This document shows positions 22,677-51,287 of a stretch of 64,000 bases of DNA, in pieces (positions within the stretch are counted from its first letter, which is position 1; each line of letters starts with the position of its first letter). This DNA is from Marinilabilia rubra (GTDB lineage: Bacteria; Bacteroidota; Bacteroidia; Bacteroidales; Marinilabiliaceae), in the NCBI RefSeq assembly GCF_003121985.1, contig NZ_QEWP01000017.1, forward strand, positions 1-64,000, given 5' to 3'. The notes below the pieces were generated by a model, which was given only the letters and a program-made list of their open reading frames with translations, did not search any database and had not been told where the DNA came from. Position numbers and translations under genes: made by a program.

Positions 22677-22761
22677 GGAGAGATGGCAGAGTGGTCGAAT
22701 GCGGTGGTCTTGAAAACCATTGACCTTCACGGGTCCGGGGGTTCGAATCCCTCTCTCTCCG
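22677..22761 (+). tRNA. tRNA-Ser (anticodon UGA)
   Basis: The acceptor strands GGAGAGA and TCTCTCC pair, with discriminator G at 22761. The anticodon loop CTTGAAA gives TGA, a long variable arm is present as expected for serine tRNA, and the T-arm contains GGTTCGAATCC. CCA is not encoded. Its 3' end is the integration site of the adjacent island. Confidence 0.95.
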
Positions 22762-22762
22762 C
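22748..22762. other. attL core, overlapping the tRNA-Ser 3' end
   Basis: The sequence TCCCTCTCTCTCCGC covers the 3' acceptor strand of the tRNA plus one base. The same 15 bases recur at 51236-51250. A further TTC at the same offset extends the similarity to 18 of 22 positions. Confidence 0.85.
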
Positions 22763-22786
22763 TGAGAAGAAAAGCAAAAAGAAGTA

Positions 22787-22819
22787 AAAGCCTGTAAGTC
22801 AACACTTACAGGCTTTTTT
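22787..22819 (+). terminator. Terminator just inside attL
   Basis: AAGCCTGTAAG and CTTACAGGCTT form an 11-bp perfect stem with a five-base loop, followed by a run of T. It now terminates the tRNA-Ser transcript and was probably brought in with the island. Confidence 0.85.
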
Positions 22820-22865
22820 CTTGGTGCACAACGGTGCATAAAAGGGCAGAAAAACGCACTTTTCC

Positions 22866-22913
22866 GGTGGACTTCTGGTGGACTTTATAAACCGGAATTT
22901 TAGTCCACCAGAA
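22866..22913. promoter_or_regulatory. Candidate integrase arm-type sites, attL side
   Basis: GGTGGACTT occurs twice 11 bp apart (22866-22874 and 22877-22885), and an inverted copy AGTCCACC lies at 22902-22909. The same motif pair with the same spacing occurs at 51159-51178 near attR, as expected of arm sites for a tyrosine integrase or its excision factor. Confidence 0.5.
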
Positions 22914-23021
22914 ATTGCTTCAAATTGCCCCCAATCGCCCTGTATTACTGCGATTCAGAAACTTCAAAAATGAGCTCATAACAATAGTTTTACATCAAAA
23001 TTAACTATTAAATTTACTGTT

Positions 23022-24236
23022 ATGAGTGGACTAGAAAACGTCAAGATCCTGTTCTTTATTAAAAGGACAAAACTGCTGAAAAATGGAGAAGCTCCAATTT
23101 TTGTAAGAATTACCATCAACAAAGAGCGTACAGAGTTTGCAGCTAAAAAAAGTTTAAAGCCTAAATATTGGAGTGATGCCCAACAAAAGGCTAAAAACAC
23201 AGCGCCAGAGGCGGAAGAGATTAATGAGGCTTTAAACAGAACGAAAAAAAGACTCCTTTCTATCATTGATTATCTGTCTTACGAAGAAGAGCCCGTCACT
23301 CCCCGATTAGTTCAGGAAAGATTCTTAGGAAAAAAAGAACAAAGGCGTACTATTCTGAAGATTTTTGAAGAACACAATGAGAATGCAAAAAAATTGGTGG
23401 GTATCGACTTTGCTCCAGGCACAGTGGAAAGATATGAAACCAGCTACAAACATACCAGAGATTTTATTCACTGGCGTTACAAGCGCGAAGACCTGGCACT
23501 GGACGATCTCAACCAACAATTTGTAAAGGATTATGAACTTTATTTCAAAACGGTGCGCAAGTGCTCCCACAACTCCACTACCAAGTACCTTAAAAACTTC
23601 AAGAAGATAGTCAGAATTGCCCTGGCGAATGGTTGGATGAAGAAAGACCCGTTTGCCACTATAAAATTCAAATTGCAGCAAATAGATGCTGTTTATTTAA
23701 CTGCTGAAGAACTGGAAGCCATGCGCAAAAAGAAACTACATATTGATCGAATTGACCAGATTCGAGATGTCTTTCTTTTTTGTTGCTATACCGGGCTGGC
23801 ATTTGCAGATGTGAAAGGCCTCAAAGCAGAAAACCTCGAAACAGACAAGGATGGTTTTCTCTGGATCCACAAAAAGCGCCAGAAAAGCCACCAAATGAGT
23901 ACTATTTTTGTAATTGATGCTGCCAGGCGTTTGCTGGAAAAATACAAAGGCAAACCGGAATTACAGGATAAAGGACTTTTATTGCCTGTACTGAGCAACC
24001 AAAAAATGAACAGTTACCTTAAAGAAATAGCAGATCTTTGTGGCATCAATAAAAAAATAACCACTCATACTGCCAGGCATACCTTTGCAACCACTGTTGC
24101 ATTAGAGAATGACATGCCTCTGGAGGTAGTTTCAAAAACGCTTGGTCACTCCAATATCAAAATGACTCAGAGATATGCGCGTACTACGGAGAATCTGATT
24201 AAAAAGAATATGCAGAAAATTGCTGATATGTATTAA
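23022..24236 (+). CDS. int: Tyrosine-type site-specific integrase
   Basis: Island integrase of 404 residues: an N-terminal arm-binding domain, a SAM-like core-binding domain near residues 110-210, and a C-terminal catalytic domain. The catalytic HTARHTFATTV (H-x-x-R), LGHSNIKMTQRYART (His and the nucleophilic Tyr) are present. The box-I motif reads CYTGLAFADVKGL, lacking the usual arginine after TGL, as in the Bacteroides CTn integrases. The ATG at 23022 is the only reasonable start. It points away from the tRNA gene and is followed by a terminator. Integration into tRNA-Ser is supported by the flanking att repeats. Confidence 0.93.
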   Translation: MSGLENVKILFFIKRTKLLKNGEAPIFVRITINKERTEFAAKKSLKPKYWSDAQQKAKNTAPEAEEINEALNRTKKRLLSIIDYLSYEEEPVTPRLVQERFLGKKEQRRTILKIFEEHNENAKKLVGIDFAPGTVERYETSYKHTRDFIHWRYKREDLALDDLNQQFVKDYELYFKTVRKCSHNSTTKYLKNFKKIVRIALANGWMKKDPFATIKFKLQQIDAVYLTAEELEAMRKKKLHIDRIDQIRDVFLFCCYTGLAFADVKGLKAENLETDKDGFLWIHKKRQKSHQMSTIFVIDAARRLLEKYKGKPELQDKGLLLPVLSNQKMNSYLKEIADLCGINKKITTHTARHTFATTVALENDMPLEVVSKTLGHSNIKMTQRYARTTENLIKKNMQKIADMY

Positions 24237-24251
24237 GTTGCAATTACAAAT

Positions 24252-24280
24252 AAAAGCGTAGCTAAAAGGCTGCGCTTTTT
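24252..24280 (+). terminator. Terminator after the integrase gene
   Basis: AAAAGCGTAGC pairs with GCTGCGCTTTT (10 of 11) around a short loop and is followed by T residues. Confidence 0.75.
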
Positions 24281-24318
24281 AATATAGCATTCAAAAGGAC
24301 CTCACTTAACACATATCG

Positions 24319-24396
24319 CATATCGCGATATGTGATATTTTACCACAAATGATTGTTTTAATGAGATTAATATTTTAATATTGCATATCGCGATAT
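24319..24396 (+). promoter_or_regulatory. Promoter with two palindromic operators for the HTH/nucleotidyltransferase pair
   Basis: The 12-bp palindrome ATATCGCGATAT occurs at 24320-24331 (within a 14-bp CATATCGCGATATG) and again at 24385-24396, 65 bp apart; a half-site ATATCGC lies at 24313-24319. Between them lie TTG at 24353-24355, 20 bases, and TAATATTG at 24376-24383, one mismatch from the Bacteroidota -7 box. The second operator abuts the -7 box and lies 14 bases before the ATG at 24411, an arrangement suited to autorepression by the HTH protein. Confidence 0.7.
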
Positions 24397-24410
24397 CCAA
24401 TATTAAGAAT

Positions 24411-24944
24411 ATGAAAAAACAACAAACCGCCATGAAACCACAGGATATTGTCTTACTACTGAAAATTATCAGTTTGGAAGATAAAACCTGGAATCAAAAG
24501 CCAATGGCTGAAGCATTAGGAATGAGTCAATCTGAAATAAGCGAATCTGTGGCCAGATCAAAAAACACCGGATTGTTAGCTCCCAATGGGAAAGTTGTTA
24601 TGAAAATGGCATTAATGGAGTTCTTACAATATGGCTTCCGTTATGTATTCCCTCAAAAGCCAGGTGCAGTAGTGAGAGGTATACCGACTTCGCATTCTGC
24701 CTCACCATTAAAAGAGGAAATATCAAGTTCAGAAGATTACGTTTGGCCTTATGCAAAAGGGAAAATCAGAGGACATGGGATTACGCCTTTATACCCATCT
24801 GTTCCGGAAGCTGCATTAAAAGACCCTGCATTCCATGAGCTTCTGGCCTTGGCAGATGCCCTGCGTGTTGGCAGAGCAAGAGAAAAAGAATTAGCAATTA
24901 AACACCTAAAAAAAAGATTAAATCTTGAAGAACAGAACAATTAA
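24411..24944 (+). CDS. Winged-helix DNA-binding protein, candidate antitoxin/autorepressor
   Basis: A 177-residue protein starting MKKQQTAMKPQDIVLLLKII; the upstream TTG at 24381 lies inside an operator, so I use the ATG. An N-terminal helix-turn-helix (PMAEALGMSQSEISESVARSK, near residues 32-52) is followed by a second half with VWPYAKGKIRGHG, HELLALADALRVGRAREKELA and a basic C-terminus. The gene overlaps the nucleotidyltransferase gene by 20 bases. Two palindromes flank its promoter. The pairing of an HTH protein and a nucleotidyltransferase resembles type IV toxin-antitoxin systems (AbiE), but the HTH protein is not an obvious AbiEi. The toxin-antitoxin reading is inference. Confidence 0.75.
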   Translation: MKKQQTAMKPQDIVLLLKIISLEDKTWNQKPMAEALGMSQSEISESVARSKNTGLLAPNGKVVMKMALMEFLQYGFRYVFPQKPGAVVRGIPTSHSASPLKEEISSSEDYVWPYAKGKIRGHGITPLYPSVPEAALKDPAFHELLALADALRVGRAREKELAIKHLKKRLNLEEQNN

Positions 24945-25614
24945 TATTGGAGTTGTCGCAGAAGTTGCCAGGGTTTTAAGAGATTTCAAAGATCACGTAG
25001 TGTTTGTAGGCGGTGCAGTAGTTAGTCTATATGCCGACGATCCGGCAGCTGATGAAATAAGACCTACACAGGATATTGACATGACTTTGAATATCATCAA
25101 CCTGAGTAATTGGGCTGACATACAAGATAAATTGGCTAGTTTAGGTATACACCCTGACCCATATGGACATGCCATTTGTAGTTACCGCTATAAAGATATT
25201 CCAATAGATATTATGCCTTCTGAAGATAGTCCACTGGGACCAGCCAACAGATGGTATAAAATTGGATTTGATAATCTTCGAATAGAAAAAGTACATGATC
25301 AGGTAATCCAAATTCTTCCTACACCTTGTTACCTGGCCACTAAATTTGAAGCATTCAACGATAGAGGCAAAGATTACAGAACCAGTCACGATATTGAAGA
25401 TATCATCTACGTGATTGATAACAACAGTACAATAGTTGAAGAGATTCAAAATACAGATAAAAGAATAAAAGACTACTTAATTGAACAACTGCAAGCTATC
25501 GAAGAAAAACAACTTCTTGAAGAAGTTATCATGTCGCATGTCCATCCGATTATGCTTGAAGAACGAATGCCAATTGTTATTGAAAAAATCAACAAAATAT
25601 TAGGAATTGGATAA
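24925..25614 (+). CDS. Nucleotidyltransferase, AbiEii-like fold, candidate toxin
   Basis: A 229-residue protein of the polymerase-beta nucleotidyltransferase superfamily. The motif FVGGAVVSLY (residues 27-36) and RPTQDIDMTL (46-55, metal-binding Asp50 and Asp52) are followed by a third acidic strand, IPIDIMP near residue 95, and by ATKFEAFNDRGKDYRTSHDIEDI, the conserved lysine and aspartate helix of AbiEii/COG-type toxins. The start is a TTG at 24925 inside the upstream gene, so expression is probably coupled. Some relatives modify tRNA ends or proteins; the target here is unknown. A hairpin terminator follows. Confidence 0.78.
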   Translation: MKNRTINIGVVAEVARVLRDFKDHVVFVGGAVVSLYADDPAADEIRPTQDIDMTLNIINLSNWADIQDKLASLGIHPDPYGHAICSYRYKDIPIDIMPSEDSPLGPANRWYKIGFDNLRIEKVHDQVIQILPTPCYLATKFEAFNDRGKDYRTSHDIEDIIYVIDNNSTIVEEIQNTDKRIKDYLIEQLQAIEEKQLLEEVIMSHVHPIMLEERMPIVIEKINKILGIG

Positions 25615-25662
25615 ATATGCAGGAAATTGAGGGTAGGTATTGATGATTGACTTTTGAATATG

Positions 25663-27208: not shown

Positions 27209-28294
27209 TTAGCTCCACTTTTTCGAAGCAAGTTGCAATAATTTCATTTTAGTTTCCTCACTAAAATTAGCTTTCTCCCAATTTTTTGATCGTATTATAC
27301 TAAGCAGATCCGCATCATTGTATTTAATCTTTCGAAAAAAAGCGTTGTTTAGATCAGCCTGCTCAAACTTTGCACCCCTTATATCAGCTCCATCAAGAAT
27401 GGCATCCTGCAAGTAGGCCTTTTGGAATTCTGCATTTTTTAAATTAGTATGTTTAAGTTTTGCTGAAATCAAATTTGATTCATGAAACTGAACACCTTCA
27501 AAATTGGATTCGTTAAATCTACCCTCCAAAAGGTTTGATCGAGATAATCTTGCATAGCTGAAATCTGTTTTAAATCCTTTGCTCCTTATAAATATACAAT
27601 CAACTAGGTTTGCATGTTGTAATTTTGAAAAAGAAAAATCAACATTGGATAAGCCTTTCATACCATTAAAGTCTAATCTGTACATATTCATACGGGTTAG
27701 ATCAAGCTCTAAACTGTTTTCCTCCGGGAACTTATCTTTTATTGGGTTGCGAAATTCTTTAAACTTTAATCGACCAGCTTCTTCAAATGTTTTAAGCATA
27801 AGAGAATTAATATTATTAGATAATTCCGTTTTTAAATTAGCAAGCAGTATCAAATATATTTGTTTGTGAAAGTTTTTATATTCTGGCCTCAAAAAAGTTA
27901 ATAAAGATACAGCTGCACCAGCCCTTACAGAATTACTAGCTGCACAAAGATTGTTTATAATGGAATCAAATTTTGTTACTAATCTTAATTTTGTTTCATC
28001 TTTTTTTTGCTCTAATTCGATTCTCTTTTCTTTAATATATTTAAAAAAAGAGATTATTACACCAACTACTGCAACGAGTGCAGTTAAAACCCCAGCAAAA
28101 GAAGGAAGTATTTTGATAATTGGTTTAACTTGATTTTCTGATTTTAGATTTTCTACCTCCTGCTTAATTTTTTCTAACTGATAAAATTGGATACTATCAA
28201 CGTTTGTAGCTACATGCAAATTGCTATTTTGAGAAAAAGAGCTTGCTGAGTAAAAAATCAAACATAAATAAATAAATATGGAATTAAATTTCAT
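27209..28294 (-). CDS. Membrane-anchored pentapeptide-repeat protein
   Basis: About 361 residues from the ATG at 28294 (MKFNSIFIYLCLIFYS); an upstream in-frame Met at 28324 precedes this signal. Order: signal peptide, short coiled region (EKIKQEVENLKSE), a transmembrane helix near residues 66-88 (FAGVLTALVAVVGVIISFF), a helical cytoplasmic segment, then about 25 pentapeptide units (pattern A/N-x-L/F-x-x, for example LKHTNLKNAEFQKAYLQDA) near residues 200-330. Membrane-linked pentapeptide proteins appear in several defence loci, but this family is unassigned. The gene is flanked by repeat copies A and B and stands alone. Confidence 0.75.
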   Translation of the reverse strand: MKFNSIFIYLCLIFYSASSFSQNSNLHVATNVDSIQFYQLEKIKQEVENLKSENQVKPIIKILPSFAGVLTALVAVVGVIISFFKYIKEKRIELEQKKDETKLRLVTKFDSIINNLCAASNSVRAGAAVSLLTFLRPEYKNFHKQIYLILLANLKTELSNNINSLMLKTFEEAGRLKFKEFRNPIKDKFPEENSLELDLTRMNMYRLDFNGMKGLSNVDFSFSKLQHANLVDCIFIRSKGFKTDFSYARLSRSNLLEGRFNESNFEGVQFHESNLISAKLKHTNLKNAEFQKAYLQDAILDGADIRGAKFEQADLNNAFFRKIKYNDADLLSIIRSKNWEKANFSEETKMKLLQLASKKWS

Positions 28295-28486
28295 AATACA
28301 ACTTATTAAAACGGTGCAACACACTCACACAAGATACTAACTTCAAACACCTTACACAACTATAATCTATTAACATCCTTATTCCGTATAGTACTTAATG
28401 AGTACGAATCGGTAGTTCACAGTTGCTAGATCAATTTTTTGTTGACTGTAGGTAAATTACTGACACTTGTCCCTTTCTTTACTTAG

Positions 28487-29498: not shown

Positions 29499-31046
29499 AT
29501 GGCCAATACACTTGATCTTATGGATTTAAAACAGATTTTGACACTGCATTTGGACGGATTGAGCAGTCGTAAGATAGGCGATATGCTTGGTATCCATCGA
29601 AACACGATTAATCGTTATGTGCAGCTATTTAATGCCAGCAAATACACAAAAGAAGAACTCCTGGCCAAAGATAATGAAGAGCTACTTAAACTTTTCCCGT
29701 CGCATACTACCATTAAAAATCCGCGCTATGATGAATTGATGCGCTACTTTGAAAAAATGAATCAGCAACTTGATCACCCGGGATTTACGTTTCTGTTTCA
29801 CTATAACGAGTATCGCCTGCAGTCACAAGAGCCCTACAGCTACACTCAATTCATGGAGCACTACCACCGTAAGTTCCCAAAAGAGAAAGGCTCCATGAAA
29901 CTCGAGCATAAGGCTGGACATGAGGTTTATATCGATTTTACGGGCAAGAAACTTCAAATTATTAATCGGGAAACTGGAGAAATCATCCCGGTTGAGGTTT
30001 TTGTAGCCATACTACCCAAGAGTCAATACACTTATGCTGAGGCTTGCCTGAGCCAAAAACGGGAAGATTTAATAAGCTGCTTGGCCAATGCACTGTCTTA
30101 CTATGGAGGCGCGCCTAAGGCCATCGTTTCAGATAATTTGAAATCGGCCCTAACAAGGGCCAGCAAATACGAGCCGGAGATCAATCGCTCATTTAAGGAC
30201 TTTGCGCGTCATTACAACTGTGTGACTAACCCAACCCGTGGCTACTCGCCCCAAGACAAGGCGCTGGTTGAAAATGCCGTAAACCTTGTTTATCAGCGTA
30301 TATTTTATCCCTTGCGTCAAATGAGCTTCTTTTCACTGGAAGAACTGAATCGGGAAATAAGAAGGCTTCTGGGCCCATATAATAATCTTTTGCTTCAACA
30401 CCGTCAAGCCAGTCGTAGAGAACTGTTCCAGTCTATCGAAAGGGAGTATCTTAAACCATTGCCAGAAACAGCGTATGAGCTAAAAGACTACCGCAGGGCC
30501 AAAGTGCAAAAGACCGGCTATGTTTATTTTTCACCGGATAAAAACTATTATAGCGTTCCTTATCGGTACATTGGTAAACGTACCCAGATACAATACACCA
30601 AATCAACTGTAGAAGTGTGCTACAATCATGAGCGTATAGCTAGTCATAAACGCAATCCGGCTCCGGGGGTGTACACCACCAACGAGAACCATCTTAGCAG
30701 TACTCATAAAGCTTATCAACAATGGAGTCCAGACTACTTTAAAAAGAAGGCTTCCAGGCATGGAGTGTATGTATTGAGCCTTATTGAAGATCTCTTAAAA
30801 GAAAGTGATTATCCTGAGATGGCCTATAAAAGAGCAATGGGTATCATCCAGCTACATCGTGACTACAGTTCAGAGCGACTAAATAATGCCTGTAAGATAG
30901 CTCTTGACGTGGAAACATACTCATACAAACGGATTAAAAACATCCTTAAGAATAATCAGGATAAAGACTTTGAACCGCTTGAAGATGCCACTCAGACACA
31001 TATCCCTTATCACAGCAATATCCGGGGCGCTTCAGCCTACAAATAG
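29499..31046 (+). CDS. istA: IS21 transposase IstA
   Basis: A 515-residue DDE transposase. The N-terminal HTH (LDGLSSRKIGDMLGIHRNTI, near residues 19-38) recognises the ends, and the RNase-H-like catalytic core follows: HEVYIDFTGKKLQ (first Asp), AIVSDNLKSAL (second Asp) and TRGYSPQDKALVENAV with the catalytic Glu. The C-terminal part matches the Mu transposase-like beta-barrel. It appears full length and intact, followed after 28 bases by istB. Confidence 0.92.
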   Translation: MANTLDLMDLKQILTLHLDGLSSRKIGDMLGIHRNTINRYVQLFNASKYTKEELLAKDNEELLKLFPSHTTIKNPRYDELMRYFEKMNQQLDHPGFTFLFHYNEYRLQSQEPYSYTQFMEHYHRKFPKEKGSMKLEHKAGHEVYIDFTGKKLQIINRETGEIIPVEVFVAILPKSQYTYAEACLSQKREDLISCLANALSYYGGAPKAIVSDNLKSALTRASKYEPEINRSFKDFARHYNCVTNPTRGYSPQDKALVENAVNLVYQRIFYPLRQMSFFSLEELNREIRRLLGPYNNLLLQHRQASRRELFQSIEREYLKPLPETAYELKDYRRAKVQKTGYVYFSPDKNYYSVPYRYIGKRTQIQYTKSTVEVCYNHERIASHKRNPAPGVYTTNENHLSSTHKAYQQWSPDYFKKKASRHGVYVLSLIEDLLKESDYPEMAYKRAMGIIQLHRDYSSERLNNACKIALDVETYSYKRIKNILKNNQDKDFEPLEDATQTHIPYHSNIRGASAYK

Positions 31047-31074
31047 AAATACAAACAAGTAAAAATCAAATGTC

Positions 31075-32250: not shown

Positions 32251-32253
32251 CTG

Positions 32254-40850: not shown

Positions 40851-41138
40851 AATACGCACGGCCGTGCGTATTCCCTTTTTTCCCCATAAACGTGTTAATA
40901 TTTTCAGATTACATCCATTCTACAATCGGGTTTGACGTGTTTCGTTGTCTGGTTTTTTGGGTTTGTTTAATCGGGTTAAACGTATATCGTTATCAGGTTT
41001 TTTGGGTTTGTTTTATCAGGTTAAACGTATTAATAATAACAGGTTAGACGCATATTTAAAAACAGGTTAGACGCACGGCCGTGCGTCTCTACGTGCCACG
41101 TTCCACAGGCCACGTGCCGCATGCCACGTTCCATATTC
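40851..41138. repeat. REP palindromes and direct repeats between hsdS and the second RAYT
   Basis: Perfect palindromes lie at 40851-40872 (AATACGCACGG and complement) and 41069-41088 (AGACGCACGG and complement). Between them, about 40925-41065, are imperfect direct repeats containing GGTTTTTTGGGTTTGTTT and AGGTTAAACGTAT. A further run of CCACGTTCCA/CCACGTGCC-like units follows to 41138. This is the arrangement expected of REP/BIME substrates beside a RAYT gene. Confidence 0.75.
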
Positions 41139-41812: not shown

Positions 41813-43366
41813 TTAAAATGGTGTTGAAATATTCAACTCATTACAAAACGAAGCAATTTCTTCATTCACCTCCTTCATTTCCCGGTCAATTTCCTTTATT
41901 TCTCCGGCTACCTGATTCAGATCCACGGGTTCTTCCTCCTCGAACGTGTCCACATACCGGGGGATATTGAGATTGTAATCGTTTTCAGCAATTTCATCCA
42001 ATGAGGCCACATAGCTGTATTTGTCGATGGTTTGGCGATTGCGGTAGGTATCCACAATCATTTCCACATCTTCATCGCGCAAGGTGTTTTGGTTGCCGCT
42101 TTTGATGTAATGGCCCTCTCCGCTGGCATCGATAAACACGATGTTATCGTCCACTTTGCGGCATTTCTTCAACACCAATATGCAGGTGGGAATGGATGTT
42201 CCGTAAAAGATATTGGCCGGCAAACCAATGACGGCATCCAGATAATTGAGTTCTTTTATGAGGTATTGACGAATAACACCCTCAGCTGCACCGCGAAACA
42301 GAACCCCATGCGGCAACACACAGGCCATTATGCCATTGTCGGCCAAATGATAAATCATGTGCTGCACAAAAGCATAATCGGCTTTGGTTTTAGGGGCCAG
42401 TTTGCCGTATTGACTGAAACGTTCATCGGTCTCAAAAAGGGGATTGGCAGCACCCTTCCAGTGTGCAGAAAACGGCGGATTGGCTACCACGGCTTCAAAA
42501 CGCTGCTCAAGGTGCTGAGGACTTTCCAGGGAATCGTCCTGTTGAATGTCGAATTGACGAAAATGTACATCATGCAGAATCATATTCATCCGGGCCAGAT
42601 TGTAGGTGGTGCGGTTCAGCTCCTGACCGAAAAACTCACCCACAGTGGCTTCCTTGGCCACCCGCAAAAGCAAAGAACCGGAACCACAAGTTGGGTCATA
42701 AACCGATTTTATTTTGTCTTTATCGGTGGTCACCACTTTGGCCAAAATTTTAGAAACCTGTTGAGGGGTATAGAATTCTCCAGCCGATTTTCCGGCACCG
42801 GCAGCAAATTTAGAAATCAGATACTCGTAAGCATCACCCAGTACATCCGATTCAATCTCTTCCAATTTGAAATCTATTTTATTGAGATAATCCAGGATCC
42901 TGACGATAATTTCATTACGAGCTTTTACCGTACGGCCTATTTTGGTAGAATTCAAATCCAGGTCTTCAAACAAGGCATTGAAATCGTCCTCCGATTCCGT
43001 TCCCATGGTACTTTGCTCTACATGGTTAAGAATACGCTGGAGATCTTCCAGTATGTAGTCGTTCTCAAGTCCACGCCGGGTCACCTCCGAAAAAAGATCC
43101 CGAGGTTCGAGAAAATAGCCCAACTTTATCAGCGACTCTTCACGTATGGCATTCAGCAACTCTTCATCGGTCAATTCCCGATATTCGGTAATGTCCTCTC
43201 CTACCAGCAAGTGATTGGCATAGAGATGCTGTTTTTCAGACAAATATTTGTAAAAAATAAAACCGAGAATGTAATCCCGGTAATCGTCGGCACTAATCTT
43301 TCCCCTTAACAGGTTTGCGATACCCCAAAGCTGTGCTTCTAATTGTTTTTTCTGGTCTTCTGACAT
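41813..43366 (-). CDS. hsdM: Type I restriction-modification DNA methyltransferase subunit
   Basis: N6-adenine methyltransferase of 517 residues. The N-terminal helical HsdM domain (FIFYKYLSEKQ near residue 53) precedes the Rossmann core with SAM-binding DPTCGSGSLLL near residue 215 and the catalytic NPPF in VVANPPFSAHW near residue 295. The C-terminus ends in a coiled region that should contact HsdS. It is the first gene of the hsd operon (hsdM, RAYT, hsdS, RAYT, hsdR). Complete. Confidence 0.95.
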   Translation of the reverse strand: MSEDQKKQLEAQLWGIANLLRGKISADDYRDYILGFIFYKYLSEKQHLYANHLLVGEDITEYRELTDEELLNAIREESLIKLGYFLEPRDLFSEVTRRGLENDYILEDLQRILNHVEQSTMGTESEDDFNALFEDLDLNSTKIGRTVKARNEIIVRILDYLNKIDFKLEEIESDVLGDAYEYLISKFAAGAGKSAGEFYTPQQVSKILAKVVTTDKDKIKSVYDPTCGSGSLLLRVAKEATVGEFFGQELNRTTYNLARMNMILHDVHFRQFDIQQDDSLESPQHLEQRFEAVVANPPFSAHWKGAANPLFETDERFSQYGKLAPKTKADYAFVQHMIYHLADNGIMACVLPHGVLFRGAAEGVIRQYLIKELNYLDAVIGLPANIFYGTSIPTCILVLKKCRKVDDNIVFIDASGEGHYIKSGNQNTLRDEDVEMIVDTYRNRQTIDKYSYVASLDEIAENDYNLNIPRYVDTFEEEEPVDLNQVAGEIKEIDREMKEVNEEIASFCNELNISTPF

Positions 43367-43425: not shown

Positions 43426-44340
43426 TCACCCCTCAAAATAATCCGAATCAATTTCCTTCACCTGGTAAGTCTCTTTAACCGAAACCCCCATTTTAAATTC
43501 AATCATCAATTCGGCCAGGCGAATGCCATTGATTAATACGATATTTCTATCAATATCGTGTGCAAATTCATAAGCAGATTTTGGGAAATCAGAAGTTGTA
43601 ATAAAAACCCCTTTTCGGGCTTTTTGTGCCAGGAGAGCTCCTGCAAAGTCGCGTACCTCTTTTATAGGCACTGTGTTCTCCCATCGTTTGGCTTGAAGGT
43701 AAATCTTGTCCAGTCCAAGGCGATCTTCATTGATAATCCCATCTATTCCTCCATCTCCGGTTCGACCAACTAAGTTACCGGCTTCCTGGCGTGACCCGCC
43801 ATATCCCATGGAGAGCAAAAGATCAATCACCAATTGCTCAAACTTAGCAGGAGATATTTCTTTAACCTTATCCAGCAAGTCAGAAGCCAGGGTTTTATTC
43901 AGACTTTTCCAGGCATTTTCTAATTCCTCTTCAGGTGTTTTGTCACTTTTTTCTTCTGGAGTTCCTTGATCTGCATCTTCCTTAATTGATTTCTGATCTC
44001 TATTGATAAATTGATTAAAGGAAGAGAACTTTTTTAAGAACGCATTATCTATCCTTGAAGGTTTTTTCTTTAAAACATCACGGCCTTGCTCAGTTATCTG
44101 AACGTGTCCCCGATTTTCAGAATGCAATAAACCAGCTTTTTTAAGATAAGTGTTCGCCCAATTCACCCTGTTATCAAAAAGTGGCTGAGATCCACTTGGC
44201 AATAACTCTCGCCGGTCCTCGGGTGAAAGATTAAACTCATTAGAAAGTAATTCTATAATTTCTCTGATTCTGTATTCTTTTCCATCAGCAACCATTTTCA
44301 ACAACGGCAACATGATAGATTGATAGTCGGGTACGGCCAT
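43426..44340 (-). CDS. mrr: Mrr-like type IV restriction endonuclease
   Basis: A 304-residue nuclease expected to cut modified DNA. The N-terminal winged-helix Mrr_N domain (residues 1-95, with REIIELLSNEFNLSPEDRRELLPSG) is joined by an acidic linker to the Mrr catalytic domain: FEQLVIDLLLSMGYGG, the GDGGIDGII acid motif near residue 193, and IYLQAKRW with the Q-x-K near residue 214. It lies 59 bases upstream of hsdM on the same strand and may be cotranscribed. Complete and convincing; the modified target is unknown. Confidence 0.92.
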   Translation of the reverse strand: MAVPDYQSIMLPLLKMVADGKEYRIREIIELLSNEFNLSPEDRRELLPSGSQPLFDNRVNWANTYLKKAGLLHSENRGHVQITEQGRDVLKKKPSRIDNAFLKKFSSFNQFINRDQKSIKEDADQGTPEEKSDKTPEEELENAWKSLNKTLASDLLDKVKEISPAKFEQLVIDLLLSMGYGGSRQEAGNLVGRTGDGGIDGIINEDRLGLDKIYLQAKRWENTVPIKEVRDFAGALLAQKARKGVFITTSDFPKSAYEFAHDIDRNIVLINGIRLAELMIEFKMGVSVKETYQVKEIDSDYFEG

Positions 44341-44573: not shown

Positions 44574-45431
44574 TCACTCCAACTTCCCACATATGAACTC
44601 GTTAAAGTCTTTGTATTTTGGATAAAGATTTTTAGAATGGTTAATAACGTTGGTGTGTATTTTCTCTATTTGCTCAACGACTCTTTGTCCAGCCTCATCA
44701 TTATCCAGGTAAAGATGCACCTTCTTAAATTCAGGCAAAAGGGATATTAAAACCTTTGTCTGACCAGTACCATTCAGGATAATTGAAGTATGCCTGGGAA
44801 AAGCAGTCTTAAAAAAAGTCAGAGCAGACAGGTAATCCATGAATCCTTCAAAAACATTCACTATTCCTGGATTGCCGGGGATGGTCGTAATGCTTTTTGG
44901 ACTGGAAGACCCTTTCCAAAAGGAATTTCTTATTTCATACCCTCCCCGGTCATTTTTGAATCCAATGGCATAATACCGTTTATCTTCGATTGCATAATAA
45001 AGCTCTTTTAGAGACATACAATTTCTTACGGCATTGCCATCAATTTTCCTTTGGTTTAGATAATCGATAAGTGCCGGTCTATTAATGGACGCATTGGCCT
45101 TGATAATTTTTAATGCAGAATTCCCTAGTGTTTTCTCTGTTTTAAAAATAATATTTCGTGGTTTAGGGAACCCTTTTCCGGAAATAATCTGGAATGCTTC
45201 TTTTGCACTAACGTTATTTAACCTGCAGATTAAAGTAATGGCATTCCCTCCTTCTCCCAGTCCAAAGTCATACCAAAGGTTCTTTTCTGTATCAACCACA
45301 AAAGATGGTTTGGTTTCGTTTCGTAATGGAGAATTGAACCAGAATTTATGGTTGCGGTTTTTCACTGGCTGAATGCCATAGCTATTCAAAATAGCGAGTA
45401 TATCTACATGAGATATGTTAATATCATTCAC
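44574..45431 (-). CDS. TOPRIM/primase-like protein without zinc ligands
   Basis: A 285-residue protein resembling the DnaG-type primases of Bacteroidota mobile elements. The N-terminal part (FNSPLRNETKPSFVVDTEKN, then NLWYDFGLGEGG) aligns with the CHC2 zinc-finger domain, but the Cys/His ligands of that finger are absent. The TOPRIM domain follows with NVFEGFMDYLSAL near residue 190 (catalytic Glu) and VHLYLDNDEAGQ near residue 238 (the D-x-D pair). It lies downstream of a primase-helicase gene and probably helps start island replication. Confidence 0.82.
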   Translation of the reverse strand: MNDINISHVDILAILNSYGIQPVKNRNHKFWFNSPLRNETKPSFVVDTEKNLWYDFGLGEGGNAITLICRLNNVSAKEAFQIISGKGFPKPRNIIFKTEKTLGNSALKIIKANASINRPALIDYLNQRKIDGNAVRNCMSLKELYYAIEDKRYYAIGFKNDRGGYEIRNSFWKGSSSPKSITTIPGNPGIVNVFEGFMDYLSALTFFKTAFPRHTSIILNGTGQTKVLISLLPEFKKVHLYLDNDEAGQRVVEQIEKIHTNVINHSKNLYPKYKDFNEFICGKLE

Positions 45432-45681: not shown

Positions 45682-47139
45682 TCATTCACTCTTTTGAGAG
45701 ATACGAAATCCCCGGGGACGCATATTTGATAAAGCCACATATTCATAGCCATATATTTGGCAATAGGCTTTCACGTAATTGGTAAATTTCCGATCCGACA
45801 ATGAAGTAAACCTTTGATTGGTTGCATCCAGAAAAGAATCACGCGTCTGAATTGTCCCCACACCCTCAAAAGCTGTCAATAGTTCCAGGTTATCCTCTAT
45901 CCATTCAGCAAAAGATTGATTGGTCTCCCGGATAAGCTCTTTTTGTTGGGGATTTTTTTCTTGATATTCGGTAACACCATGCATCAAAAACAACATCACA
46001 CAATTAAGCATGAACACATCAAACCGGCGCCACTCGTTTTCATCCCAGTCACTAAAGAAGGTACTTTCGTAGTAATCCAGTGGTGTAAGCTTATTGCTGA
46101 AAAACTGGAAAACCTCAATTTGGTGTTGGCGACGCAGAAAAGAACCGCTGTTACCTTTCAGAATATTGTTGGTAGTAATAACAATTGTGGGAGACTCTTC
46201 TACGGACAACTCAATTTCATCCCTGTTTTTCTTATTGATATTTCTAAACCCGGAAGTTATGATTGAAAACAGATCTTCAAAGTTGAATCCTCGCTTCACA
46301 TCATCAATCCCCACAATTCTGACACTTTCATCAATCTTCTGCCAAACAAAATCCGCTTTCGCATCAAATTTCTTCCCGTCAAACAAAGCAGTCTTCCTAA
46401 ATTTTGACAATGCATCAACAATCAGGCTTTTTCCACTTCCTCCTTCCGGAGCAGAACTTACCTTTTCATCATTAATAATAACGGCCCGTGATGTTGCAGA
46501 TGTTTTGTAATCGAACAAACAATACCCCATTACGGAGCAAATTCTTTTAAATCGTTCTTCATTGCCCTCACTAAGCTTGGAAATAAAATCCTGAAACATC
46601 GGAGGTGTTGTTTCAATATCTGTTTCGTCATTGAAGGTGCGCGAGATAATATGATCCTTCCAGATTAAGCGCTTAAACTGACGATAAGGAATCGGTGGTT
46701 GAATGCCCTTAGCAGTAACCTTCACAACCCCATTTTGAAAATAAAAGAAAGATTCACCTGGTTTATCTCTGTGCATTTTAGGTTTTATGGTTTCCACAGC
46801 ATCCAGATACTTCAATGAGAAAAGAACTGTTTTGTTGAGTATATAATCTGTTAAACGGTCATTTTCCAAGGTCTTGACATAGTTTAAAACAATTTCTTTC
46901 ACCTCTGAGGTAGAAATCTTGGAGACAATGTAGTCCTGGACAAGGACTAAATCGAAATCCGCACCCTGCCTGATCTTTCGTATTCCTTTTCCATGAATAA
47001 ACCTGAAAAATTTTGAAGACGAAAACCTTAGCTTCTTATCTTCAGTTTCTTTAATAAAATCACTCCCGTCAACATGCGATTGATTGAGCTTACCATCAGA
47101 CATACCGGTGACCGTCTGAGTATTATCAGTTAATTTCAT
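45682..47139 (-). CDS. Primase-helicase family protein (SF3-like helicase)
   Basis: A 485-residue protein of the phage/plasmid primase-helicase group. Walker A is APEGGSGKSLIVDAL near residue 232, Walker B-like VRIVGIDDV near residue 273, and TIVITTNNILKGNSGSFLRRQ near residue 320 carries the sensor Asn and arginine finger of SF3 helicases. N- and C-terminal parts match replication proteins found on Bacteroidota islands beside TOPRIM proteins. It is preceded by an HTH gene and followed by the TOPRIM gene, all on the minus strand, which I read as a replication module. Confidence 0.83.
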   Translation of the reverse strand: MKLTDNTQTVTGMSDGKLNQSHVDGSDFIKETEDKKLRFSSSKFFRFIHGKGIRKIRQGADFDLVLVQDYIVSKISTSEVKEIVLNYVKTLENDRLTDYILNKTVLFSLKYLDAVETIKPKMHRDKPGESFFYFQNGVVKVTAKGIQPPIPYRQFKRLIWKDHIISRTFNDETDIETTPPMFQDFISKLSEGNEERFKRICSVMGYCLFDYKTSATSRAVIINDEKVSSAPEGGSGKSLIVDALSKFRKTALFDGKKFDAKADFVWQKIDESVRIVGIDDVKRGFNFEDLFSIITSGFRNINKKNRDEIELSVEESPTIVITTNNILKGNSGSFLRRQHQIEVFQFFSNKLTPLDYYESTFFSDWDENEWRRFDVFMLNCVMLFLMHGVTEYQEKNPQQKELIRETNQSFAEWIEDNLELLTAFEGVGTIQTRDSFLDATNQRFTSLSDRKFTNYVKAYCQIYGYEYVALSNMRPRGFRISQKSE

Positions 47140-47227: not shown

Positions 47228-47503
47228 TTAAATCTTATTCAAATATTCCTCAATATCGGAAGCTTTGTAATAGATCTTTTTACCGGACTTCCTAAATTTA
47301 ATGGTCTGATTATCGCGCATATTTTGCAGCGTTCGCTTGCTTACTTTGAGGATTTTACAAACCTCGGCGCTTACATACCATTTTTCTTTAAAACCGTCGT
47401 TGCTCTTTAAATCAAGATTTTCAAGCTTATCAGATATTCTATCAATCTTGCGAATTAATTTCCCGAACTCATGTTCATCTATTATCATTATTTGACTTGC
47501 CAT
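47228..47503 (-). CDS. Excisionase-like helix-turn-helix protein
   Basis: A small DNA-binding protein (91 residues from MASQIMIIDEHEF; an in-frame Met at 47527 would add eight residues). The C-terminal half is a MerR/excisionase-type HTH: WYVSAEVCKILKVSKRTLQN, then KFRKSGKKIYYKASDIEEYL. Such proteins act as excision factors or regulators in Bacteroidota elements. It is upstream of the primase-helicase gene, with a GGCAGG/CCTGCC hairpin in the 88-bp gap that could attenuate read-through. Confidence 0.85.
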   Translation of the reverse strand: MASQIMIIDEHEFGKLIRKIDRISDKLENLDLKSNDGFKEKWYVSAEVCKILKVSKRTLQNMRDNQTIKFRKSGKKIYYKASDIEEYLNKI

Positions 47504-47594
47504 TGCAATAATTTTAAGAATTAACACTGCACCGTTGACGTCGTTAGGTGATTAATTACGTTGGCAAATCTGTGAAATAAAATGCAGGGAGGTA

Positions 47595-47616: not shown

Positions 47617-47668
47617 GATCATAAGTAATTCAATACTTGAAGCTTATTAGAAAAATATTTTTGAAAAG

Positions 47669-49096
47669 TTATTTCGCTTTCAACTGTGCAAGTTGAACCT
47701 TAATTTCATGCAGCTTTTCTTGTATATACTTGACACTTTTTTGATTACTTAACGGATCTTTGAAGGCTTTCAAGATAGTATCATAACCAAATGAATCATC
47801 GTTTGCATTAAAAGAGACAGAAAGGATCCTGGCTACACGGGCTTTTTGATTTTTTGATTTAATCAAACCAGACTCAAAAAATAAGGCAAACAGCAATCCT
47901 AAACTATCTGCAGTACCATTGTAATCTATCTTCTCTGACAAGTACTTTTTACTATCAGCCTCAAGCAACCTTATTTGCTTTGGTTCGGCATTGCTGGATT
48001 GTGAAGATTCAACCGATTGAGCAAGAGATTCTTTTTCATCTGTATCCATTCCATATCTTTCGAAATATCCCTCTAAAATTAAAAATGCATCATCAAGGGT
48101 TGATTTTTCAATTTTATTTATCCGTGATATATTAAACTTCTGGTACCTAGGAGTCTCTTTTATCCCTTCCAATTTTTGCCTAAACCATTTCAATCCACCA
48201 ACAACTCTTTCTTCGCTCTCACTCATTTCAAGCAATTGAAGTTCTTGGCTTATAAATTTAAGGGTAAGATCTGATGCCAAATTTGTGTGAAGCATAAAAT
48301 CTAAAATAAAATCTAATCTTTTCCCGTCCTCCTTAATTTCTTTCAATTCTCCTTTCAAAAATGCTAATGCAACTTGATAAAAGAAGCTTAATCCTGAATC
48401 CTCATTAAAAACAATATAGTCATGAATGAATTTCTTTACGTATTCTCCAAATTCCATGTGAGAATCGATACGAAACAAGTTAATTACTTCTTTTATCTGG
48501 GATACCTGATCTCTACTATGGATTTTGGGTGTCAAAGACTTAAAAAAGTCAAGATGGCTCTTATCAAATGAATATATAAATGTTATATCTTCTGGAATGG
48601 GAAGATCTTTTTCAAGTACTTCTACCATTTTTTTAAAATCATTTTGCAAATCATCTTCATAAAGTAGATGAACACCATATTCGATGGCCTTTTCTTTATC
48701 CACCCATTCATAAGTTAGCTCAAACTCTACGAGAATAATGCATATAAAAGAATGAATCTGTGTATACAAAGAGTAAAAATTTTCGAGTTCAGGAAATATT
48801 TTTGATATTGAAGGTCCAAATGTTATATAAGTATTCTGTGATTCTTTAATCAGTTCCTCAAGTTCCTGCTTTAATGTTAGCAAACGTTTCAAGACCTTTT
48901 CAAAATAAACGGAACGATGTTGATTTTCTATCGAACTGTAAAATTCAGATCTTAAAATGCGTAAAACCCTCCTTCCTTCTATTTCAATTTTGTCGGCAAT
49001 TAATTTTTCTTTTATAATTTGGGGAGGAGCGATTGTATAAGTGGCTGAAATTAATTCACCAACCATCTCATCAAAAAAATGGAGAGGATAACTCAT
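47669..49096 (-). CDS. Hypothetical island protein
   Basis: A 475-residue, strongly charged and mostly helical protein with no signal peptide or membrane segment. A central acidic low-complexity linker (SVESSQSSNAEPK near residue 375) separates a long helical N-terminal part from a short C-terminal domain (LLFALFFESGLIKSKNQKAR, then a run of helices). C-terminal domains of this kind occur in proteins near regulators on Bacteroidota conjugative elements, but I cannot name a family with confidence. It lies between the HTH gene and the Fic gene on the same strand. Confidence 0.7.
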   Translation of the reverse strand: MSYPLHFFDEMVGELISATYTIAPPQIIKEKLIADKIEIEGRRVLRILRSEFYSSIENQHRSVYFEKVLKRLLTLKQELEELIKESQNTYITFGPSISKIFPELENFYSLYTQIHSFICIILVEFELTYEWVDKEKAIEYGVHLLYEDDLQNDFKKMVEVLEKDLPIPEDITFIYSFDKSHLDFFKSLTPKIHSRDQVSQIKEVINLFRIDSHMEFGEYVKKFIHDYIVFNEDSGLSFFYQVALAFLKGELKEIKEDGKRLDFILDFMLHTNLASDLTLKFISQELQLLEMSESEERVVGGLKWFRQKLEGIKETPRYQKFNISRINKIEKSTLDDAFLILEGYFERYGMDTDEKESLAQSVESSQSSNAEPKQIRLLEADSKKYLSEKIDYNGTADSLGLLFALFFESGLIKSKNQKARVARILSVSFNANDDSFGYDTILKAFKDPLSNQKSVKYIQEKLHEIKVQLAQLKAK

Positions 49097-49211
49097 TTGT
49101 AAAATTAATATTGAAAATAAGACAAAAAATAAGTTTCCTAAAATACTTTATTTTGCCTAAACAACACCTCATAAAAAGGCACCTATTTCAGTCCCTATGC
49201 TATCCAAGCAT

Positions 49212-50741
49212 TTATTTTGAACTATCAGCCACCAATTCTCCCAAGAACCGGGCAAAATCAGTAACATCCCCATGAGCACTGGCTTTTTCCAATGCAGCCA
49301 TATAAGCAACCCTTTGTGCAAGTGGTATTACTGTCCATGAATAACCTCCGGATGCCAACATCACATTAAACAGGAAACGTCCGATACGACCGTTACCATC
49401 CATATAGGGATGGATAAATACAAATAAAAAATGTCCCAGCACTGCACGAACACCAGCATGGGTTTCTTCTTTTAATAAATCAAACAATACAGGCATGGCA
49501 TCACGCACTCCATCAGGATTCAGTGGGGTATGCATTGATCCTTTAATGTAAACCTGAGCCGAACGATAACCTGCCAAATCACCTGCCTTTAGAATACCTG
49601 CGGTAACACTTGGTGCAAACAATTCCCGGTACCAGTCTCCATGATCATAATCAGCAACTTCCCCTGCATTTTCCCCCTCCAGGATTGCCTTAATGCTTTC
49701 TTTAACTGCCTGAAAAGCCTGATAATAGCCACGTGCTGCCATTGCATTTCGGGTTTCCTGGTCTGCTTCATTATCTTCGGGATTCCAATTTCCTGACTTT
49801 ACCTTGTTTATTAGTTCAGCTGTAACCCGATACCCTTCAATTGAAAGAGAGTTGTATGCATCATCGACATAGTTGTCTTCCACTTCTTTCAAATATGCTT
49901 CAATATCTGATGGTAATTCTTTTGGAACCGGAAAATTATTAACTACCGTTTCGCGCATATTGTGCCACATTAAGCGCATTCGATTAGCATAAGGAGAGGC
50001 ATCCCTTGTGCTTAGGGAAATTGACAATTGCTCATCAAAGGGATCAAGCTCTCTGACATCATACCCTGATGACTTCATGGCTTTAAGTATATTGTCTGCC
50101 AACTTTTTGTTGCCAATATTCCGAAATGCCCCGGCAAGACGGCCAGCGACAATACTATGCCCCCCATTAAGTAGCTTTTCAAGCAGCATGGAACCATCTT
50201 TAACCAACGCAAGACAGGATCGGGCATCCGTAGCATGACGAGTGAAAAAGTCTTCACTTACCGCTATAAGACCTTCTTCCAATGTTAAGAGTTGCAAACC
50301 ATCCTTGTTCACCCGGGATTTTTCTTCAGGGATCTTCAGCTTGTTATCCAGAATAGAGGTACCATGCAGCAAATGAACAATATTGTTACTGGCCTTTGGA
50401 GATCGAACCAATAGCTGCGCAGGTATTATGGTATTGCCACTATGAATTAGCAATGATTGTTCCGGCGACAGGCACCAATCAGTCCCAAAGCGTGAATTAA
50501 CATATACAGAAACAAATTTCCAATAAGCCATATACCATGAAGTAGTATCTCCATCACGCTCATCCGGACGGGTTGAGATATACCATCCTCTAATAACTTC
50601 TTTGATAAAGCCATTCGCTTTCAAAAGCTTTTTATGAAGAGCCGTCAAATCATCAGCATGAATAATTACGACATCGTTATCTTGCTGTAACTTCTGCAAT
50701 GCTGCCAATGCCTGAGCCAGTTTTTCCTGTGGTGTGGCCAT
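49212..50741 (-). CDS. Fic-family AMPylase with N-terminal AbiEi-like domain
   Basis: A 509-residue protein. The C-terminal Fic domain carries the complete catalytic motif HPYMDGNGRIGR (His near residue 443), so it should transfer AMP or another nucleotide moiety to a hydroxyl of a target protein. Before it, NSLSIEGYRVT (near residue 305) resembles the inhibitory S/T-x-x-x-E-G motif of self-restrained Fic proteins. The N-terminal 200 residues (LHKKLLKANGFIKEVIRGWYI, then a long beta-rich part) look like the winged-helix antitoxin part of AbiEi-type proteins. It is the last gene before attR. Fusions of this type occur on many islands; the target is unknown. Confidence 0.88.
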   Translation of the reverse strand: MATPQEKLAQALAALQKLQQDNDVVIIHADDLTALHKKLLKANGFIKEVIRGWYISTRPDERDGDTTSWYMAYWKFVSVYVNSRFGTDWCLSPEQSLLIHSGNTIIPAQLLVRSPKASNNIVHLLHGTSILDNKLKIPEEKSRVNKDGLQLLTLEEGLIAVSEDFFTRHATDARSCLALVKDGSMLLEKLLNGGHSIVAGRLAGAFRNIGNKKLADNILKAMKSSGYDVRELDPFDEQLSISLSTRDASPYANRMRLMWHNMRETVVNNFPVPKELPSDIEAYLKEVEDNYVDDAYNSLSIEGYRVTAELINKVKSGNWNPEDNEADQETRNAMAARGYYQAFQAVKESIKAILEGENAGEVADYDHGDWYRELFAPSVTAGILKAGDLAGYRSAQVYIKGSMHTPLNPDGVRDAMPVLFDLLKEETHAGVRAVLGHFLFVFIHPYMDGNGRIGRFLFNVMLASGGYSWTVIPLAQRVAYMAALEKASAHGDVTDFARFLGELVADSSK

Positions 50742-50917
50742 GTTTTATAAACTTTTATAGTTGAGTGCACTCGGAAAAGTAAGAATTTTGTCAAATTCGA
50801 GGCGACCGGATTTTTTGACCCGGAGTTATCGTTTGATAATGAGGATTCAAAAAAACGGCTCAACGAAGAAGTTGGCTAAATTGGACTTTTCGGAGTGGGC
50901 TCAATAGTTGTATTACA

Positions 50918-51037
50918 TTTAGTATTTACCTGCGTACCAAATTTAGTATTTACAAATGTAGCATTTTTAGTTTATGCCATTGTACTATTTTTAGTATTTG
51001 GCAATGTAGTATCTTTAGTATATAGCCATATTATTTC
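50918..51037. repeat. Five 24-bp direct repeats upstream of fic, next to attR
   Basis: The heptamer-plus TTTAGTATTT starts at 50918, 50942, 50966, 50990 and 51014, an exact 24-bp period. The second half of each unit is also related (rCCAATGTAGTATT-like). The units diverge at several positions. The surrounding gap 50742-51357 has no credible gene. The pattern is iteron-like and could bind a replication initiator, the integrase/excision factor or a regulator of fic. Confidence 0.75.
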
Positions 51038-51158
51038 AAAAAAAGAGAACCCATTTTTTTTAATTTAGGTTCGAATCCTTTTCATTAAAAATATTACCTT
51101 TAAAGTGAAATAGAGTTCATTTTGAAGTGAGCTAAAACACCCTAATTAACATAATCTG

Positions 51159-51178
51159 GGTGGACTTGCAGAGGACTA
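51159..51178. promoter_or_regulatory. Candidate integrase arm-type sites, attR side
   Basis: GGTGGACTT at 51159-51167 is followed 11 bp later by the related AGAGGACTA. The same motif and spacing lie inside attL (22866-22885). Confidence 0.45.
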
Positions 51179-51235
51179 AGCTTAACGCCTCAGTTAAAAC
51201 ATTGAAAGAGTGGTATTTGAAGCCAAAAATTCATT

Positions 51236-51250
51236 TCCCTCTCTCTCCGC
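51236..51250. other. attR core
   Basis: An exact copy of the last 14 bases of tRNA-Ser plus one base (TCCCTCTCTCTCCGC), with no tRNA around it. It marks the right end of the island. About 170 bp earlier, 51068-51078 is a second tRNA-derived fragment, GGTTCGAATCC. Confidence 0.85.
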
Positions 51251-51255
51251 AAATA

Positions 51256-51287
51256 AACCATCCTTTTTTAAAAGGGTGGTTTTTTTA
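51256..51287 (+). terminator. Original tRNA-Ser terminator, displaced by the island
   Basis: AACCATCCTTTT pairs with AAAAGGGTGGTT (one wobble) and is followed by T residues. It lies six bases beyond attR, where the terminator of the tRNA gene would have been before integration. Confidence 0.75.

Follow-up and report, generated by a model that had tools for sequence, protein, structure and literature searches.

This locus raises the question of whether the DNA between a tRNA-Ser(tga) gene and a second copy of that gene's 3' end in Marinilabilia rubra is an integrative element, exactly where such an element would end, and what its ends carry. We refer to the whole stretch analysed, 64,000 nucleotides of contig NZ_QEWP01000017.1 (assembly GCF_003121985.1), as the window. 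The features at the two junctions, the left and right attachment sites (attL and attR), were as follows.

22677-22762, + strand: tRNA-Ser(tga), target of integration (ARAGORN; Rfam RF00005, 59.9 bits)
22748-22762, + strand: attL core TCCCTCTCTCTCCGC, the 3' end of tRNA-Ser (exact repeat, 2 copies genome-wide)
23022-24236, + strand: tyrosine integrase, 404 amino acids (Pfam Arm-DNA-bind_5, Phage_int_SAM_5, Phage_integrase)
51236-51250, + strand: attR core (exact repeat, 2 copies genome-wide)
~51256-51281, + strand: host tRNA-Ser terminator-like hairpin with a T-run, displaced by the island (directly behind the tRNA in genomes G003 and G016)

We are highly confident that window 22748-51250 is an integrative element inserted by a tyrosine integrase at the 3' end of tRNA-Ser(tga), with a size of 28,488 bp when one core is counted. 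The exact 15-bp core was observed only twice in the whole assembly (5,377,742 bases), and allowing up to 2 mismatches still gave 2 copies in the window against 0.07 expected. The integrase gene starts 259 bp past the tRNA-Ser. An earlier note on this DNA had proposed a tRNA-Ser island with matching cores, an integrase adjoining attL and a hairpin just past attR, and each of these proposals held. The same note described the island as defined to the base. The identity block is exactly 15 bp with neighbouring bases differing on both sides, and the limits stand within this block and no finer.

The empty-site allele that the earlier note had called for was observed in the congener G003 (L063), where a single TCCCTCTCTCTCCGC comes after the tRNA-Ser and AACCATCCTTTTTTTAAAGGGTGGTT, the hairpin seen here at 51256, comes next. 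On the left, G003 aligned block by block to window 12567-22772. On the right it matched window 51236-51302, 51354-51858 and 51852-51961, the last of these after some 0.8 kb of additional G003 sequence; the distance from the tRNA to the right-flank gene was only 0.2 kb. In another genus (G016) the hairpin seen beyond attR also sits directly behind a tRNA-Ser, and the exact core was not found in that genome. End repeats of a tRNA 3' end, an adjoining integrase and an empty-site allele together place the element among tRNA-integrated genomic islands.

The site is occupied by a sister island in a second congener (G004), with 27,464 bp between the same cores. Most shared genes were similar (integrase 91%, HsdR 93%, HsdM 91-98%, Mrr 95%, primase 88%, helicase 96%, the helix-turn-helix gene HTH_17 98% and Tmn 74% identity), and the divergent ones were HsdS at only 42% and a gene for a 475-amino-acid protein at 27%. 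The AbiE pair, IS21 genes, pentapeptide protein and Fic gene of the window gave no match in the G004 island. Integrase-less island remnants were observed behind the tRNA-Ser of G002. In G055, from another genus, an attR was 96% identical to the right end of the window; contig C144, which bears it, had no match to the window island proteins, and a search of the whole G055 genome for the attL segment, the integrase and the 475-amino-acid protein did not locate the rest of an island.

The integrase is full length, and R352, H376 and Y385, which we take to be its catalytic residues, were among the invariant columns of 6 relatives, the window included. Scanning genome contigs with the integrase gave 25 loci, from which the weak L123 and L124 were excluded; with the window added the set comprised 24 loci. 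Eighteen close loci (66-91% identity) were all from Marinilabiliaceae, and five were distant (38-48%). Ten of the close loci lay behind a called tRNA-Ser and one (L113) behind a tRNA-Ser truncated by the contig end, while the remaining 7 followed a core only, of 15 bp in four cases and 13 bp in three. The targets of the distant loci were tRNA-Phe, tRNA-Asn, tRNA-Arg (two) and tRNA-Ser. Two contigs of G089 bore three cores each, as expected of tandem arrays. Scans of phages and plasmids returned only matches below 60% identity.

A tree of the integrase was built from 22 rows, without L120 and L121; tandem rows were labelled tga from their core, which in three of them (L105, L106 and L115) was incomplete, and L113 was labelled from the tRNA cut at the contig end. 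The Ser(gga) label takes 3 changes on this tree, of which the starred branches force 2. This suggests that the family may switch its target between tRNA-Ser isoacceptors, with 8 inner branches of the tree unresolved.

What the ends carry besides the core became apparent from a second hairpin, inside attL, which the earlier note had overlooked; its claim that the tRNA terminator was displaced past attR stood.

22786-22817, + strand: island-borne terminator-like hairpin AAAAGCCTGTAAGT-caac-ACTTACAGGCTTTT (at +19 to +25 in 23 of 24 loci; covarying)

A hairpin with a T-run starting +19 to +25 past the junction was observed in 23 of the 24 integrase loci, and at each of these 23 none of 40 dinucleotide shuffles reached it; at the exception, L120, 6 of 40 did. 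The covariation set held 14 of the 24 hairpins, trimmed to 32-33 bases after 8 duplicates, L120 and L114 (distinct, with a loop one base shorter) were dropped. These 14 hairpins, all distinct, have 96.9% of their cells paired, and both partners have changed in 6 of the 14 pairs. Shuffling gave a mean of 2.6 such pairs and reached 6 in 2 of 500 rounds, and sliding the partner destroyed the signal. The same hairpin follows the 7 junctions that have a core only and no tRNA, it was found with both tRNA-Ser isoacceptors, and in Marinilabilia the carried hairpin differs from the host hairpin at the empty site. On these three grounds, comparison of the junctions shows the predicted hairpin to belong to the element in the close family.

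The same was shown, again by comparison of predicted hairpins, for one distant member, L117 of Alistipes sp. dk3624 (G099:C1 766615-777834). This compact element at tRNA-Asn spans about 11.2 kb and has an integrase at 45% identity. In this complete genome the exact 15-bp tRNA-Asn end is repeated at a distance of about 11.2 kb, with identity confined to those 15 bp, and the element has its own hairpin inside attL and a different one beyond the other core copy. No GGTGGACTT arms were found in the L117 element. A carried replacement terminator was not reported in the literature passages found, which is weak evidence as subscription journals are mostly outside their coverage. The pattern offers a testable rule, that an element displacing a tRNA terminator brings its own, with a hairpin nearly fixed in place behind the junction.

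Further inward, candidate arm-type sites were observed at both ends.

22866-22874, + strand: arm-type site L1 (GGTGGACTT), position conserved in all 19 close loci (window counted)
22877-22885, + strand: arm-type site L2 (GGTGGACTT), 11 bp from L1 and conserved as L1
22901-22909, - strand: arm-type site L3, inverted (GGTGGACTA), found by regular expression in 18 of 19 close and 3 of 5 distant loci
51159-51167, + strand: arm-type site R1 (GGTGGACTT), exact, conserved in relatives
51170-51178, + strand: arm-type site R2 (AGAGGACTA, degenerate), where relatives have for example AGAGGACTT or AGTGGACTT

Relative to the core, the right direct pair lies at -77/-66 and the left direct pair at +104/+115, with the inverted copy at +139. 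The motif GGTGGACTT by itself was not enriched in the window (13 matches at up to 1 mismatch against 11.45 expected), and we take the sites as real because of their spacing and conservation in relatives and not because of motif frequency. A direct pair NNNGGAYTW with 11-bp spacing and its first copy at +102 to +104 of attL was found in the window, in all 18 close loci and nowhere else among the 24 (19 loci in total), against a shuffle mean of 0.0 (200 rounds). Many of these loci are close relatives and hence non-independent trials; the constant spacing over 18 loci despite differing left-copy sequences favours a functional role.

For attR, we surveyed cores in 12 genomes, those of 12 of the 25 loci, where 63 of 64 core matches were fetched (without G091:C342); with the window and the G055 and G002 loci added, the survey held 69 distinct cores. 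Of these, 26 had no called tRNA, and 16 of the 26 had the attR pair. The other 10 comprised L191, with R1 and a degenerate second copy, the contig-cut tRNAs of L153 and L159, and 7 other junctions. At attL, the distant L116, L118 and L121 had one direct and one inverted arm copy at corresponding places. The relic at the tRNA-Ser(gga) of the same M. rubra genome has GGTGGATTT and AGTGGACTT at the position of the right pair. Degeneracy of R2 in the window is explained by common right forms in relatives such as GGTGGACTTACAGAGGACTT.

The paired sites at fixed distances from the core are thus strongly supported as candidate arm sites from comparative evidence, as the earlier note had suggested; that the integrase itself binds the GGTGGACTT sites is what we infer. 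The note's tandem pair with 11-bp spacing at both ends was exact on the left (22866 and 22877), the second right copy has 3 mismatches, and the inverted third left copy was missed. Its reading is supported as right in substance, with one overstatement (the right pair) and two omissions (L3 and the carried hairpin). With an Arm-DNA-bind_5 domain and arm-type repeats flanking the core, the integrase has the sequence features of a heterobivalent (arm-site) enzyme. Hairpin and arm layout together provide a search signature for such elements and their exact ends.

Candidate promoter and operator sequences lay between the arm sites and the integrase gene (int) and, at the other end, inward of the right arm sites.

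22970-22979, palindrome: ATGAGCTCAT, candidate operator upstream of int, ATGANNTCAT-like, with a presumed function
22985-22992, + strand: candidate int promoter -7 box (TAGTTTTA), TAnnTTTA/G after the promoter consensus
51067-51078, + strand: conserved block AGGTTCGAATCC in the right-end region, kept with changes in 16 of 17 attR (not L158)
51095-51102, + strand: candidate outward promoter -7 box (TACCTTTA), TAnnTTTG/A after the promoter consensus
51111-51120, palindrome: degenerate copy of the ATGANNTCAT palindrome (TAGAGTTCAT, 2 mismatches), from comparison with relatives

Boxes of the TAnnTTTA/G type, which by consensus we take to be promoter -7 boxes, were found within +210 to +223 of attL in 23 of 24 loci and, as TAnnTTTG/A, at -137 to -142 in 17 of 17 attR. 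At attL, 17 of 24 loci have the palindrome ATGANNTCAT at +205 to +208 with no more than 1 mismatch; the distant loci do not have it there. At attR it lies at -122 to -125, with no more than 1 mismatch in 12 of 17 and 2 mismatches in the other 5. The counts of box and palindrome at both ends come without a shuffle control. On the left, ATGANNTCAT lies just upstream of the int box, and on the right it lies behind the outward-pointing box. The boxes may be promoters and the palindromes operators, and common descent alone could preserve them. Reading GGTTCGAATCC at 51068-51078 as a copied tRNA T-arm was rejected as an over-reading, many relatives having GGTTCGGTTCC there, and the block more probably belongs to a promoter or regulator site.

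We advance, as a tentative proposal that we would not yet favour, that in this integrase family the element ends serve as a fixed regulatory module besides being a recombination site. The carried terminator, standing in for the displaced one of the tRNA, the outward promoter and the matching ATGANNTCAT sites next to both promoters might make transcription across the junction depend on whether the element is integrated, and protect int from transcription arising at the tRNA, in the circle or from a tandem neighbour.

In the mechanism that we favour, the integrase recombined the 15-bp core carried by the element with the same sequence at the 3' end of tRNA-Ser(tga), which rebuilt the tRNA at attL and left the host terminator beyond attR. 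The arm-binding domain of the integrase may hold the GGTGGACTT sites while core contacts are made at the tRNA end, giving the recombination complex, and the HTH_17 protein may act as excisionase. The carried hairpin would supply the tRNA with a new 3' stop and may block transcription into int, both from the tRNA promoter when the element is integrated and from the outward right-end promoter when it is circular or in tandem. Primase and helicase would copy the circle. Transfer would require a helper, whether a phage or a conjugative element, or transduction, since neither relaxase nor conjugation genes were found in the 20 island ORFs scanned, and the host would presumably benefit through phage defence. 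The element is of an ordinary kind that is unusually well resolved.

The genes for the predicted replication and excision functions, and one of no known family, are encoded towards the right end.

44574-45431, - strand: CHC2-Toprim primase (Pfam)
45682-47139, - strand: P4/D5-like helicase (DUF5906 E=2e-4 and primase_Cterm E=6e-4, both below cut-off)
47228-47527, - strand: HTH_17 protein, candidate excisionase (Pfam)
47669-49096, - strand: 475-amino-acid, mostly helical protein of no known family (no Pfam, NCBIfam or PHROG match)

The helicase also matches phrog_28855, whose function is unassigned, at E=9e-62. Besides int, the HTH_17 gene was the most frequent island gene in relatives, with matches at 46-74% identity in 7 of 10 right-end regions (L126, L201, L202, L205, L206, L208, L209) and none in those of L203, L204 and L207. 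Among the selected open reading frames (ORFs) scanned near it in relatives were DUF3987 or AAA_25 proteins with DUF6371/Zn-ribbon proteins, presumably replication-type genes. The 475-amino-acid protein, encoded between the HTH gene and attR, has a 27% identical relative at the same place in G004 and relatives at 20-23% identity across the aligned part in 4 of the 70 other genomes of the family that were searched. Its fold was predicted from 6 sequences with a mean predicted local distance difference test score (pLDDT) of 65.7 and a predicted template modelling score (pTM) of 0.42; a search of the PDB with this fold returned nothing at E<=0.001, and the Pfam matches at E<=5 were all weak and single-member. 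A suspicion that it was an RteC-like regulator found no support.

Several observations weigh against the element as described. The right-side synteny of the G003 empty site spans only about 0.7 kb of window sequence, the next right gene (52111-54243) has no close ortholog in G003, and the flanks diverge further right. R2 differs from GGTGGACTT at 3 of 9 positions, 11 bp from the exact R1. The distant L120 lacks both the hairpin and the normal arm layout, having one arm copy that is out of place, and the arm motif is missing from the distant L117. L118 and L121 each gave a single core copy and no right end, and the hairpins of these two and of L116 could belong to the host. Similar hairpins (CCTGTAAG...CTTACAGG) were observed behind tRNA-Ser in G021 and G010, with no relative of this integrase listed on the contigs bearing them, and also beyond attR in L145, L164, L170, L174 and L191. 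Element and host hairpins are therefore not always distinct; some may have been exchanged between the two or be left from former element ends. Lastly, a Pfam scan of 20 island ORFs, outside which short and overlapping ORFs fell, found neither the relaxase of an integrative mobilizable element nor the conjugation genes of an integrative and conjugative element, the 475-amino-acid family being unassigned, and no structural gene was found in the scanned island ORFs.

Three other explanations of the locus were weighed. The 15-bp repeat might be a tRNA-linked tandem repeat, with the intervening region never inserted by an integrase. A unit of about 150 bp with core and hairpin does recur in tandem behind the tRNA in G002 and at the tRNA-Ser(gga) of M. 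rubra itself, but the clean empty site of G003 and the sister island of G004 contradict such an origin, as does the constant placement of arm sites and integrase relative to the core across many elements. On the clean G003 site we rejected tRNA-linked repeats as the source of the core repeat, and we regard this explanation as scarcely credible. A weightier alternative is that a former integrative element has become fixed, and that the defence island does no more than decay and recombine with sister islands. Integrase-deleted remnants in G002 and at the tRNA-Ser(gga) of M. rubra fit this, as do the entry of an IS21 copy and the degenerate right arm copy. It has to contend with a full-length integrase that keeps R352, H376 and Y385 in invariant columns, with two intact ends and with a 96% identical attR in another genus (G055), and we consider it unlikely, though deserving of attention.

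The remaining alternative is that the element is a phage satellite, like P4 or the phage-inducible chromosomal islands (PICIs), packaged by a helper phage and not dependent on conjugation. The module of such a satellite is present (integrase, regulator and primase-helicase, the helicase matches being below curated cut-offs), with an excisionase-like HTH protein and without relaxase or conjugation genes, and in the scanned relatives replication genes of other types lie near the same HTH gene. However, no terminase, capsid, packaging or capsid-interference gene was recognised in searches of the island ORFs, the 475-amino-acid gene being without family, and the 28 kb here and the 53 kb between the cores of a relative are large for a phage satellite. 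We judge this improbable, and an integrative element at tRNA-Ser(tga) remains our preferred reading.

Known systems, compared by description, share some of these traits. NBU2 and NBU1 are integrative mobilizable elements of Bacteroides at tRNA-Ser and tRNA-Leu, respectively (PMC5704250), and resemble the island as Bacteroidetes elements with a tyrosine integrase and a tRNA 3' end as target; NBU1 has a relaxase gene and an origin of transfer (oriT) (PMC5704250), whereas no relaxase was found in the window island. The CTnDOT integrase group (PMC8138268) shares arm-binding, core-binding and catalytic domains, Bacteroidetes hosts and subterminal arm sites, and differs from the window island, which targets a tRNA end and has the arm sequence GGTGGACTT. 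Helper-embedded PICIs are described as having a doubled motif on both sides of the centre of their attachment site (attP), at 81 and 132 bp, as proposed arm sites, and attP can carry replacement sequence for the target gene (PMC10111431). The doubled motifs at fixed distances flanking the att centre are alike, but motif, host group and targets differ, no packaging genes were recognised here, and the hairpin carried by the window island lies outside the 15-bp identity block. In the IntS/TorI module of the KplE1 prophage the integrase promoter lies within the attL recombination region (PMC2951348), as predicted here, with the difference that in the window island a terminator-like hairpin stands between the tRNA on one side and the arm sites and predicted int promoter on the other.

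The remaining island genes are cargo.

24381-25614, + strand: AbiE-like toxin-antitoxin pair, 187 and 229 amino acids (second ORF AbiEii PF08843, E=4.6e-6; first named by position)
27209-28324, - strand: pentapeptide-repeat protein (Pfam)
29499-31812, + strand: IS21-family insertion, istA and istB (Pfam)
32254-35937, - strand: Tmn defence NTPase (PADLOC Tmn E=9e-74; YobI-ATPase)
36009-38891, - strand: HsdR, type I restriction subunit (Pfam, PADLOC)
38861-39631, - strand: REP-associated (repetitive extragenic palindromic) tyrosine transposase-like ORF (NCBIfam NF047646 E=3.1e-14, under its cut-off)
39676-40776, - strand: HsdS specificity subunit (Pfam Methylase_S)
41813-43366, - strand: HsdM methyltransferase (Pfam)
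43426-44340, - strand: Mrr-type methyl-directed restriction enzyme (Pfam, PADLOC)
49212-50741, - strand: Fic-domain protein (Pfam)

With Tmn, type I restriction-modification, Mrr and the AbiE-like pair, this is a defence island whose cargo is mostly defence by predicted function; PADLOC covered 10 island ORFs, with AbiE and Fic not among them. In Marinilabiliaceae we observed a cleanly bounded island family caught empty, occupied, decayed and in tandem, and here loaded with defence genes.

Sequence from the 3' end of the integrase gene recurs as an 82% copy that brackets the AbiE segment (24207-24234 and 25614-25641). The G004 island lacks this segment and G002 has it at 94% identity, as if it had been inserted by recombination between sister islands. 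The target-recognition regions of HsdS (39807-40174 and 40363-40715) failed to align with G004 within flanking DNA of about 92% identity, which points to specificity swapping. Palindromic ACGCACGGCCGTGCGT repeats at 40854-40881, 41071-41098 and 41491-41518 surround a weak Y1_Tnp ORF (41207-41803) and probably form a REP/transposase-like set with it.

A decayed relative of the island was observed at the tRNA-Ser(gga) of M. rubra itself (G000:C8, L076 and L127), keeping the 3' end of the integrase gene, the REP-transposase-like ORF and, in its attR, both arm copies. The tandem unit of L066 (G002:C43, minus strand, 2379-2600) is 151 bp long, has core and hairpin behind tRNA-Ser and resembles tRNA-linked repeats, and a similar unit lies behind the tRNA-Ser(gga) of M. 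rubra. Other sequence classes were observed directly behind tRNA-Ser or the core at L142, L146, L138, L129, L133, L154 and L156, several with a hairpin close past the junction; these are perhaps elements with other integrases at the same hotspot. Just inside attR, 50908-51024 holds an array of 24-nt repeats with a 78% match directly behind the tRNA-Ser terminator in G024, from another genus.

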